Below are positions 27,132 to 31,617 of a DNA stretch of 39,269 nt, one piece after another. Below the pieces are notes generated by a model, which made no database searches, was not told the origin of the DNA, and saw only the letters and a program-made list of their open reading frames with translations. Origin of the DNA: Dehalococcoidia bacterium (GTDB lineage: Bacteria > Chloroflexota > Dehalococcoidia > Dehalococcoidales > BS750m-G39); assembly GCA_011176635.1 (NCBI GenBank), contig DUEC01000002.1, positions 1 to 39,269 of the forward strand, in the 5' to 3' direction. The translations under genes were made by a program, and so were the position numbers. Position 1 is the stretch's first letter; each line of letters opens with the position of its first letter.

Positions 27132-27256
27132 GGTAAGGTAACCCAGAAGTGGCTCAAGGACCGCAAGAGCAGAATGCCGACCTGTGGCGAGTTGCCCCAT
27201 TACCAGAAGGTGATAGTTACTCTGAAGGAAACAAGGAATTCCCTTGAGGAGCTAAT
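27132..27256 (+). pseudogene. Gene remnant resembling the C-terminus of a Type ISP / N6-adenine DNA methylase-type protein
   Basis: + frame from about 27132: GKVTQKWLKDRKSRMPTCGELPHYQKVIVTLKETRNSLEELILA. The KWLKDRK...HYQK.IV.LKET pattern is recalled from methylase C-termini; no intact gene upstream. Confidence 0.5.
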
Positions 27257-27577
27257 ATTAGCCACGGTTACCTCGCCCACGATATATACCTCAAGCTGTT
27301 GGTAGCTCGGTGTCCCACCTCCACCCCCACCCCCAGGCGGCGGTAATTCCTCAAGCAGGTAGTTTATGGTGAAGGAAAAGCTATCACCCTGAGAATCGTT
27401 TTGAGGCTCTCCCGTTTCCGCGAATTCCCACTCCCAAACCAGGATGAGAGTCTCACCGGCGGAGAGCTGGTTTACCTTAATATAATTTGTATCGACTGCA
27501 CTTTGTGGCAGCTGGTGAATTGTAGCCGGCAAAGTTATGTTGGTGGTTAACCGCTGACAGGAGGCAGGGTAACCCAT
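27200..27577 (-). CDS. Fragment of a TasA/camelysin-like surface protein module with Pro/Gly linker; C-terminus probably chimeric
   Basis: NITLPATIHQLPQSAVDTNYIKVNQLSAGETLILVWEWEFAETGEPQNDSQGDSFSFTINYLLEELPPPGGGGGGGTPSYQQLEVYIVGEV. The last ~20 aa are the antisense of the + strand methylase-like remnant. Confidence 0.55.
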   Translation of the reverse strand: MGYPASCQRLTTNITLPATIHQLPQSAVDTNYIKVNQLSAGETLILVWEWEFAETGEPQNDSQGDSFSFTINYLLEELPPPGGGGGGGTPSYQQLEVYIVGEVTVANISSSREFLVSFRVTITFW

Positions 27578-27927
27578 AAGCCCTGTACCTCATCGTAAAA
27601 GGCGATGACCGGTGAAGAAGCGCCAGCAGGCAGGTCATCGGGGTCATAGCTGAGCTGTATTATCAGTGAAGGGTCGAAGAAGGTGGCGCTATAACAGGGG
27701 TCATTCCTGTCGCTATCTTCATACCCCGTAAAATCATAGACCGGGCTTGCTATTGCCATATCCTCCGGTGGAGGCGGTCCATAATCGGACAGACTCATCA
27801 CCACTACGTGTGGGAAGCAGTAGCATCCCGCACACTCACCACAAAGTATCTCCATGTTATAGAGAATCTCCAGGAAGTGTAGATCATCACTATCTCTTTC
27901 ATGCCGATATTCTAAGTCCGCCTCCAC
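27547..27927 (-). CDS. Fragment resembling the C-terminal module of a large surface protein
   Basis: PPPPEDMAIASPVYDF...ATFFDPSLIIQLSYDPDDLPAGASSPVIAFYDEVQGLWVTLPPVSG; GTG start overlapping the upstream gene. Confidence 0.5.
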   Translation of the reverse strand: MEADLEYRHERDSDDLHFLEILYNMEILCGECAGCYCFPHVVVMSLSDYGPPPPEDMAIASPVYDFTGYEDSDRNDPCYSATFFDPSLIIQLSYDPDDLPAGASSPVIAFYDEVQGLWVTLPPVSG

Positions 27928-28511
27928 AGCAGAACAAAACCTGCAACTAAACCGATAACCACCAGTGAGAATGCCCCGATTATGATTGCCAGTATCCTGT
28001 TATGGGCATCTCTCAAGTCATTTACCTCGGCTGTAATCTGAGCCTGCTGGCTCTCCAAGGTGCTCATCCGCTGCTCCGAAGCACTTTCCATGAGACTCGC
28101 TACGTGACCTTGGCTGTCCAACGATTCCGCCAAGGCGCTGATTTCGGAGCTATGCTCTTGCACCAGCAAAATTACCTTAGCCAACCCTTCTACTGTCAAC
28201 TCTACCGTGTCACCATATTCACTTATCCAAGACTGGAAAGGTGCTAATTCCTCGCCAATTCTCTGATTAACCCATCCAATGTCAAATCCACCCCCGCCTA
28301 GCATAGTGAAAACAGCGATAGGGTCGTTGAGATTATGACCGTTTATCCAGACCTGAGGATTATTCCCGAATATGTCCAAGTCCACATTAGGATCGTCTCC
28401 CACCACCACTATGTCAACGTCCAGACCGGGATCGGCATAGGCAACCGAGCTGACACCTAGAAGCATGGCTGCCAGTAGAAATGCTGCAAATACTATTTTC
28501 AACCACTTCAT
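27912..28511 (-). CDS. Secreted, membrane-anchored beta-repeat/coiled-coil protein
   Basis: Signal peptide MKWLKIVFAAFLLAAMLLGVSSVAYA, repeats GLDVDIVVV/GDDPNVDLDIF/GNNPQVWINGH, coiled-coil-like middle, C-terminal TM IIIGAFSLVVIGLVAGFVLLWRR. ATGA-type 4-nt overlap with the upstream gene. Confidence 0.75.
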   Translation of the reverse strand: MKWLKIVFAAFLLAAMLLGVSSVAYADPGLDVDIVVVGDDPNVDLDIFGNNPQVWINGHNLNDPIAVFTMLGGGGFDIGWVNQRIGEELAPFQSWISEYGDTVELTVEGLAKVILLVQEHSSEISALAESLDSQGHVASLMESASEQRMSTLESQQAQITAEVNDLRDAHNRILAIIIGAFSLVVIGLVAGFVLLWRRT

Positions 28512-28972
28512 TTTTTCACCTCCTTTCCCCCTGGTTTTGCCAGTTGGGTATCTTTTTTATCTATATTGTTTTTCGCCCTCCTCCTGATTAATAAGAAAGC
28601 CAGCAATCCCGCCGCCGGGAACACCCCCGATATAACTGGCACTACACTCCCCTGTGCCGGCTCATCAGGTTTCTGGGCAGGGTTATCAAGGCTGTGGTCA
28701 TCTAAAAAGACCTGAGACTCATCGCTGGCTTCAATATTAACCCCTACCTCATCACCGGCATCAATGTGAACCTGTGAAGGGCCTTCCACCCCAACATTAA
28801 GCTCGGCAGGACCTCTCACTTCAATGTCAACCTCCAAGTCGCCATCTATACCAATATCAATAACCGTGTCCGAATCTTCGTCAGGGGGGTCATCGGCATA
28901 GGCAACCGGGCTGGCAAATAGAAGCGTTGCCAGCATCATAAATATCACCGATAATAAACTAAACCACTTCAT
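28508..28972 (-). CDS. Secreted, membrane-anchored decapeptide beta-repeat protein (paralog-like to 27912-28511)
   Basis: Signal peptide, five 10-aa units GDLEVDIEVR/GPAELNVGVE/GPSQVHIDAG/DEVGVNIEAS/DESQVFLDDH, C-terminal TM followed by RRRAK. Confidence 0.75.
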   Translation of the reverse strand: MKWFSLLSVIFMMLATLLFASPVAYADDPPDEDSDTVIDIGIDGDLEVDIEVRGPAELNVGVEGPSQVHIDAGDEVGVNIEASDESQVFLDDHSLDNPAQKPDEPAQGSVVPVISGVFPAAGLLAFLLIRRRAKNNIDKKDTQLAKPGGKEVKK

Positions 28973-29046: not shown

Positions 29047-30033
29047 CTAGTCGGCTCGCATTGAATAGTTGTCAACATCGCAAGTACCGTTGACCCAATT
29101 AGCGATGATAGACACTGACGCAGACCCAGGCGAACCATCACCGGTAACAGTTATTCCTGTACCGAAGGGAGTGCCGGAATGGCTCAAGTCCGAAGTAACT
29201 TGGTAAGATCCTTCACCTATGGCCTCAAAGTAGCCCGTACCTTCTGCATGGAAGCTTGCCATCCAGGCGTTGCAATTATTACAGCCACAGTCAACGCCCA
29301 GGCTAGTCCCGTATATATAGGACGGAGTACCACCGTATGTGGTGTTACCCGTAGATTGTGAGCTCAAGCAGTGCAGCTGGGCTAAGCCGCTACCGCTTGA
29401 AAAAACCCATGCGTCGCTCACGTTTGAGGTTGGGGTGGCTGGGGGTGGTACACTTCCACTACCAATGTAGCGCACCAGCTCATAGTAATCGGCACCTGCT
29501 GCTTCAAGGTTGTAACCATTCGCAGTATGTGGATTCCCATAGGTGCAGTCCTTCAGCGCGGCAAAGTTGGTCCAACTTCCCGTAGCCATGGCACCCCAGG
29601 AACCCTCACCGACCACACTAACATGGCTATAAGACTCCTGACCAGCGACTCCATACATGCTCTCATAAGAGTCATTTCGGGTGGTACGATAGTCAATGAA
29701 GCCATTTATTACCTCAGCATCTATGTAAGTGCTGAAGTTATCCACGCCCATATAAGGGTATGCTGTGTTTTGGGTTAGGCTGGCAGTAAAGCTACCCGAA
29801 ATGTGACTCCCAGTACACGCGGTATTGAAGTGTGTTTCGGCGTCGTCACCAGAATAAACATCGCCTGCGACCCAGCCCGTTCCATCCCAAGTAACATTAA
29901 CCTCACCAGTAACCCCAGCGTCATCGCTACCTCCAATATCAGCATCTAGACCCTCAGCGGCCAGGGAGACGGAGCCAAAGGACAGGGTAGTTACCACTGC
30001 CAATACTAAGGCAATTCCAAAAATCTTTTTCAT
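29047..30033 (-). CDS. Secreted protein of unknown function, Cys-containing, Ser/Thr/Gly-rich
   Basis: Signal peptide MKKIFGIALVLAVVTTLSFGSVSLAAEG; strong SD (aaaggagg) upstream; DCGCNNCNAW, TCDVDN cysteines. Confidence 0.75.
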   Translation of the reverse strand: MKKIFGIALVLAVVTTLSFGSVSLAAEGLDADIGGSDDAGVTGEVNVTWDGTGWVAGDVYSGDDAETHFNTACTGSHISGSFTASLTQNTAYPYMGVDNFSTYIDAEVINGFIDYRTTRNDSYESMYGVAGQESYSHVSVVGEGSWGAMATGSWTNFAALKDCTYGNPHTANGYNLEAAGADYYELVRYIGSGSVPPPATPTSNVSDAWVFSSGSGLAQLHCLSSQSTGNTTYGGTPSYIYGTSLGVDCGCNNCNAWMASFHAEGTGYFEAIGEGSYQVTSDLSHSGTPFGTGITVTGDGSPGSASVSIIANWVNGTCDVDNYSMRAD

Positions 30034-30138
30034 TTGGTTCCTCCTTTATAGATTTTTTCTTGCCACCCGACCGACCACGGGTATAGGCAAGTCCTCAGTC
30101 TCCTGAGAGCCAATTTTCTATAACTATCACCCCCCGTT

Positions 30139-30294
30139 TTAACCTTTAACCTGATTATTGGTTAACGCTTCCCTAGCATCCTGCAAAGATTTCCTCTGGT
30201 CTTTGGCAAGCCAGCCACAAGCAAGATATACTCTACTTTCCAACTCCGTAAGCCTCCGCAAAACAAAAAACCGACCCAAAAGGGTCGGTTTCAC
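30139..30294 (-). CDS. Small ORF (51 aa) not in the ORF track
   Basis: GTG start, AGGGAG 6 nt upstream; VKPTLLGRFFVLRRLTELESRVYLACGWLAKDQRKSLQDAREALTNNQVKG*; helical, charged, coding-like composition. Confidence 0.45.
   Translation of the reverse strand: MKPTLLGRFFVLRRLTELESRVYLACGWLAKDQRKSLQDAREALTNNQVKG
30271..30288 (-). terminator. Terminator-like hairpin (minus strand) upstream of the secreted-protein operon
   Basis: CCGACCC-AAAA-GGGTCGG (+ strand); on the minus strand followed by TTTTTTGTTTT. Confidence 0.7.
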
Positions 30295-30431
30295 TATTGG
30301 CTCCCTACAACCCAAGTGTCCAACTACAGGTCGTAGTTCAAAGCCCCCTATGAGTATGGTACTGGCGTTGCCATGAGGTTATCTTTTTTCTCGTTAACTT
30401 AGTCGCTCTACCTCCTAAGCCTACTTAAGCG
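30289..30431 (-). ncRNA. Candidate structured leader RNA / small RNA
   Basis: Lies between a promoter (30438-30466) and the hairpin at 30271-30288; contains local stems AACTAC-GACCT-GTAGTT, TGGC-AAC-GCCA, GAGGU...ACCUC. No known riboswitch class recognised. Confidence 0.4.
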
Positions 30432-30437
30432 GACTGT

Positions 30438-30466
30438 ATCTTACCTATACGGACATACATTGTCAA
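30438..30466 (-). promoter_or_regulatory. Putative sigma70-type promoter driving the leader/surface-protein operon
   Basis: Minus strand TTGACA (30461-30466), 17-nt spacer, TAAGAT (30438-30443). Confidence 0.6.
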
Positions 30467-31240: not shown

Positions 31241-31268
31241 TTGACAAACGCCGATAAACAATTATAAT
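31241..31268 (+). promoter_or_regulatory. Consensus sigma70-type promoter upstream of the DUF378 gene
   Basis: TTGACA (31241-31246), 16-nt spacer, TATAAT (31263-31268), both hexamers perfect. Confidence 0.75.
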
Positions 31269-31341
31269 AAAACTCCTGATATGTGAAATTAACTGAATAA
31301 TCGAAATAAAGTAGTAGTCGGGTTGGGCAGATGAGGCAAAG

Positions 31342-31390
31342 AAAGGGCACAGAACCGCCAATTGAGAGGCGGTTGATAGTGCCCTTTTTT
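31342..31390 (+). terminator. Intrinsic-terminator-like nested hairpin in the DUF378 leader (attenuator candidate)
   Basis: AAAGGGCAC (31342-31350)/GTGCCCTTT (31379-31387), inner AACCGCC (31353-31359)/GGCGGTT (31368-31374), then T tract; SD aaggagg and ATG follow directly. Confidence 0.75.
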
Positions 31391-31413
31391 ATTAAATTCA
31401 AAGGAGGTCAAAC

Positions 31414-31617
31414 ATGGAAACGCTAGCTATCGTCTGCATAATCATTGCTGCTGTAGGTGCCCTAAACTGGGGTTTGGTCGGACTATTCAAGTTCGACCTA
31501 GTGGCTTTGATCGCGGGGGGCAAGAAGTTCGGGGAAGTCAATATCCTCTCTCGTCTAATTTATATCATAGTAGCCGCCGCCGGCGTTATAGCTGCTGTCT
31601 ATTATTTGACCGATTAA
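31414..31617 (+). CDS. DUF378 family small membrane protein
   Basis: IIAAVGALNWGLVGLFKFDLVALI ... LIYIIVAAAGVIAAVYYL, two TM helices; SD aaggagg. Confidence 0.88.
   Translation: METLAIVCIIIAAVGALNWGLVGLFKFDLVALIAGGKKFGEVNILSRLIYIIVAAAGVIAAVYYLTD

Follow-up and report, generated by a model that had tools for sequence, protein, structure and literature searches.

The window analysed here is a 39,269-nt stretch of contig DUEC01000002.1 from a Dehalococcoidia bacterium of the order Dehalococcoidales, an uncultured relative of Dehalococcoides (GenBank assembly GCA_011176635.1), and all coordinates refer to it unless otherwise stated. On its minus strand, upstream of a probable operon for exported proteins, lies a leader with a complete aptamer of the c-di-GMP-II class, which responds to cyclic dimeric guanosine monophosphate (c-di-GMP). 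We put the probability that this riboswitch is a transcriptional ON switch of the surface operon at about 0.88. The assignment of the leader as a further member of the known class is well supported by its match to the family model, and the direction of switching is predicted from an overlap between the aptamer and an intrinsic terminator.

The c-di-GMP-II aptamer

A covariance scan with the Rfam models placed an 82-nt aptamer at 30355-30274 of the minus strand. The match to c-di-GMP-II (RF01786) covers the model in full length (positions 1-84 of 84) and scores 67.2 bits against a gathering score of 53.5, a surplus of 13.7 bits (E 4e-13 for the window). At this site RF01786 outscores its clan relatives, and the match is unique in the host assembly (1.1 Mb in 76 contigs, 82.8% complete). 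The other c-di-GMP class, c-di-GMP-I (GEMM), had no match in the window at its gathering score and none in the leader at E values up to 5. Leader matches to STnc240, rnk_pseudo, NEAT1_2 and Hrs13 were rejected, being at least 35 bits under their cut-offs, and three of these four overlap the terminator. A sequence-only reading of this stretch had described a riboswitch or attenuator architecture, which fits the aptamer and terminator found here. It had also seen no match to c-di-GMP or another known class; an Infernal hit to a known class, which it had itself named as a refutation, is what the Rfam scan returned, and a riboswitch of unknown class is thereby ruled out.

The class-defining pseudoknot joins the P3 loop to the 3' segment, with CACU (30318-30315) facing AGUG (30295-30292), and four of its five pairs form in the window. 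For comparison we assembled 42 related Dehalococcoidales aptamers, found with Rfam and not chosen for terminators, which together with the window make 43. Across this set the pseudoknot covaries: pair 40-66 occurs as CG, UA and AU, pair 41-65 as AU and GC, and pair 43-63 as UA and CG. Canonical pairs fill 205 of the 215 pseudoknot cells, against a mean of 195 in shuffled sets, and none of 2000 shuffles, which ignore relatedness, reaches 205. Matches to the class occur in 27 of 101 relative genomes and, in a phylum-wide sample of 301 genomes, in 74. Among named genomes, those with related riboswitch loci are mostly Dehalococcoidia and other Chloroflexota, although the pattern used for that scan came from the clade and is biased towards it.

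Overlap with the terminator and predicted switching

The leader ends in an intrinsic terminator (30260-30292, minus strand), built as GAAACCGACCC-UUUU-GGGUCGGUUUU with an 11-bp stem at 30292-30267 followed by a T-rich tail. With its flanks it folds at -18.7 kcal/mol (z -5.7 against dinucleotide shuffles). This terminator is stronger than the one described in the sequence-only reading, whose 7-bp hairpin is the GC-rich core of the 11-bp stem.

The 5' arm of this terminator (30292-30282; GAAACCGACCC) lies inside the aptamer. It runs from the last base of the 3' strand of the pseudoknot, through the conserved AAACCG, into the 3' strand of P1. Because the arm consists of conserved aptamer nucleotides, aptamer and terminator are mutually exclusive, and the window thus has the shared nucleotides expected of a transcriptional ON switch. 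The overlap is itself conserved, the terminator stem starting within or beside AAACCG in 40 of the 43 aptamers. Since the aptamer core is finished before the 3' arm of the terminator is made, the polymerase should not terminate when a ligand stabilises the aptamer.

In the mechanism that we propose, RNA polymerase would begin near 30431 and transcribe the aptamer. With c-di-GMP bound, the pseudoknot and P1 would hold GUGAAACCGACCC, the 5' arm of the terminator would not be free, and read-through would allow transcription of the operon for secreted and anchored proteins. Without c-di-GMP, GUGAAACCGACCC would pair with GGGUCGGUUUU to form the 11-bp terminator, releasing a leader RNA about 170 nt long.

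The promoter assigned to this transcript (30438-30466, minus strand) has TTGACA at 30466-30461, a 17-nt spacer and TAAGAT at 30443-30438, matching 10 of 12 consensus positions, as the sequence-only reading had noted, and the transcript start is predicted near 30431. The first part of the leader, about 76 nt (30356-30431), belongs to no known family and had no Rfam match. Leader folding is stronger than in shuffles (z -2.6), while the region 30266-30030 shows no exceptional global structure (z 0.0). As the leader holds the 82-nt aptamer, the terminated RNA would measure about 170 nt, not the 140 nt first estimated; the distance of about 230 nt from the terminator to the ATG of the secreted protein (30033) agrees with the earlier estimate. 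A second Shine-Dalgarno-like stretch, GGGGGGTGATAG, was seen at 30124-30135 (minus strand), about 100 nt upstream of the gene start. Stretches of the GGGGGTGA type reappear 3' of the terminator in many relatives' leaders, with no consistent small open reading frame (ORF) after them; a small upstream ORF as the cause of the conserved sequence behind the terminator was rejected, since the reading frames differ among loci (judged by eye).

Relatives show variations on this layout. One of the exceptions to the conserved overlap is genome G051 (locus L061), where the aptamer has no terminator; its 3' segment, ACCTTTTAT, might pair with ATAAAAAGGAGG, a Shine-Dalgarno region, which suggests a translational rather than a transcriptional version. 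Another genome (G082, locus L068) has tandem c-di-GMP-II aptamers (contig positions 1724857 and 1725114), both with a terminator of their own, preceding a 1173-aa exported protein.

Weighing of the alternatives

Several points weigh against the ON switch proposed above. The fifth pseudoknot pair is absent in the window (A39-A67), and P1 of its aptamer is imperfect. The ON direction rests on geometry and on a precedent in Clostridioides difficile. The promoter match, taken alone, is weak and not beyond chance, 7 kb of sequence holding 11 promoter-like sites against 6.4 ± 2.5 in shuffles. It is better supported because such sites are enriched upstream of the relatives' aptamers: sites with at least 9 of 12 matches occur within 150 nt upstream of 32 of the 43 aptamers, about threefold the 10.7 expected from mononucleotide shuffles.

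The opposite direction, an OFF switch in which c-di-GMP binding promotes termination, has its precedent in C. difficile, whose class I c-di-GMP switches are OFF (PMC6366702). We judge it improbable here, since the 5' arm of the terminator belongs to the aptamer core, so that ligand binding should oppose the terminator, and no separate antiterminator was seen. Moreover, the class II switches known from C. difficile are ON (PMC6366702), and one of them, Cdi-2-4, acts by preventing termination (PMC6366702, PMC11477304; see also PMC3649979). About equally improbable is a variant aptamer for another cyclic dinucleotide or a relative of c-di-GMP. The core of the window aptamer departs from the Rfam consensus at some positions, for instance with GUGAAACCG in place of GUGCAACCG, and in C. 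difficile the class II aptamer discriminates less among analogues than class I does (PMC11477304). However, GUGAAACCG is the rule in the clade of related aptamers, RF01786 beats its clan relatives at the site, and the genome encodes a GGDEF enzyme. Least probable of the three is that the terminated leader, about 170 nt long, is a small RNA in its own right and that a different promoter serves the operon. Promoter and strong terminator do bound a discrete RNA of that size, and terminated c-di-GMP riboswitch leaders accumulate in C. difficile (PMC3649979), but the full aptamer, an overlap geometry that is sensible as conditional read-through, and exported-protein genes downstream on the same strand in most relatives make the small RNA entertained by the sequence-only reading unnecessary.

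Downstream genes and c-di-GMP supply

The gene behind the switch (29047-30033, minus strand) encodes a 328-aa protein with a signal peptide. It had no match in Pfam or NCBIfam, and its AlphaFold model from the single sequence is unusable (pLDDT 31). The probable second gene (28508-28972, minus strand) encodes a 154-aa protein with a signal peptide and a C-terminal membrane anchor. This protein weakly resembles the product of gene three in the riboswitch operon of G001, a genome of the same family. The probable third gene (27912-28511, minus strand) overlaps the second by 4 nt; its 199-aa product also has a signal peptide and a C-terminal membrane anchor, and its N-terminus resembles the 154-aa protein. 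A surface operon had been suggested downstream, and the signal peptides and transmembrane tails in these three ORFs, as well as the targets in relatives, are consistent with it. In a hand count, about two thirds of the leaders (some 27 of 43) lie upstream of a protein whose N-terminus has a signal peptide or a lipoprotein signal. In three genomes the target is a PilT-like ATPase (T2SSE in Pfam for the one checked), and further targets include two-component regulators and small membrane proteins.

Behind the operon, at 27200-27927 on the minus strand, there are two overlapping ORFs that are possibly one broken gene; the product of the first resembles (34% over 97 aa) a segment of a 1560-aa protein encoded behind a c-di-GMP-II riboswitch at locus L101. 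On the other side, at 31241-31617 on the plus strand, a perfect promoter match, TTGACA-N16-TATAAT, lies upstream of a gene for a 67-aa DUF378 membrane protein, in the otherwise ORF-poor 1.4 kb or so between dnaN and the riboswitch.

The host assembly encodes one GGDEF protein, in which 7TM, GAF, GGDEF and HD_5 domains were recognised, the last of HD-GYP type; it carries a GGEEF motif. Its domains and motif indicate that the host can probably make c-di-GMP. Searches for EAL and PilZ were negative, absences that are provisional in an assembly lacking about 17% of the genome.

A recurrent hairpin in the leaders

When the related leaders were read, one hairpin kept reappearing in the stretch from the terminator to the gene. 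Its loop is N-G-G-U-C-G-A in 29 hand-anchored copies, all positions but the first being nearly invariant. Models of the hairpin were built stepwise and matched further places, including some without a c-di-GMP riboswitch. Among 16 copies, the one in the window not included, each of the five stem pairs shows changes on both sides, and 96% of the cells pair against 86% in shuffles, a value reached in none of 500. A further 13 copies outside every model pair better than all 2000 shuffles, although these copies were picked by a model that rewards pairing and were anchored by hand, and relatedness is not preserved in the shuffles. Most copies, across class Dehalococcoidia, have the end of the loop 38-46 nt upstream of the start codon of a gene whose product has a signal peptide, as called by a simple hydrophobicity rule; some matches without the hairpin are likewise upstream of signal-peptide genes. 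Copies are found at loci L186, L189, L191, L192, L193, L195, L204, L205, L207-L210, L213 and L214, and possibly in the window. No Rfam family covers the hairpin, and the literature searched, of which coverage was partial, holds no description of it; it appears to be undescribed so far.

The possible window copy, CUUGCC-UAU-ACCCG-UGGUCGGU-CGGGU-GGCAAG (30059-30091, minus strand; local fold z -2.0), was judged without models R1 and R2, which had contained it. It is the best window match to a model built without it, at 19.9 bits (E 0.0013 in 39 kb). Its stem is good and its position, 36 nt before the ATG, comes close to the usual one, but the loop, UGGUCGGU, has 8 nt, with G at the nearly invariant A. 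In the class-wide search, the match listed for the host genome is a different, gappy place (24.8 bits). The window hairpin may be a diverged copy of the element.

Two readings of the loop were set aside. Pairing with the terminator arm CCGACC as the cause of its conservation was rejected, since the hairpin also exists without the riboswitch. The bare loop motif as a genome-wide marker hardly exceeds its reversed control, with 9 exact matches in 101 genomes versus 7, so that only hairpin and context together are informative. Beside the hairpin, two loci (L175 in G027 and L178 in G071) share a terminator-like GGGCACTAG..AACTGC..GGCGGTGG..GTGCC-TTTTTG, with no Rfam match at these loci.

We see an even chance that the leader is composite, with the c-di-GMP-II switch followed, about 40 nt before the start codon, by this second, apparently undescribed element. 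Across the class the hairpin would then mark mRNAs for exported proteins, with or without a riboswitch, and it may bind a protein, an RNA or a ligand that controls translation or stability of surface mRNAs.

Comparison with known systems and implications

The window aptamer shares with the RF01786 family the full-length match over the cut-off, the elements P1, P2, P3 and pseudoknot, and the position upstream of surface genes; it differs in the clade-typical GUGAAACCG and in a terminator built into its 3' end, and nothing excludes membership. The closest parallel in function is Cdi-2-4, which precedes pilA1 in C. difficile (PMC6366702). It has the same aptamer class, termination without ligand and read-through with it, and genes for surface structures as targets. 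However, Cdi-2-4 controls type IV pili, whereas the window operon encodes uncharacterised exported proteins, and its regulation was measured, whereas that of the window is predicted. Cdi2_1 of C. difficile has the same aptamer class and also a surface protein as target (PMC11477304). The class I switch Bc2 of Bacillus thuringiensis (PMC6366702, PMC4933901) likewise exerts ON control by transcriptional read-through, its target being an adhesin gene, although its aptamer class is unrelated.

These results predict a c-di-GMP route to surface-protein genes in Dehalococcoidales that would use very few parts: the assembly, which is incomplete, has a single bifunctional cyclase/hydrolase and a single riboswitch, and neither EAL nor PilZ was matched in it. 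The class-wide hairpin is a more novel lead than the riboswitch itself, and if it is borne out, it would represent a new structured element of mRNA, associated with exported proteins throughout a bacterial class.
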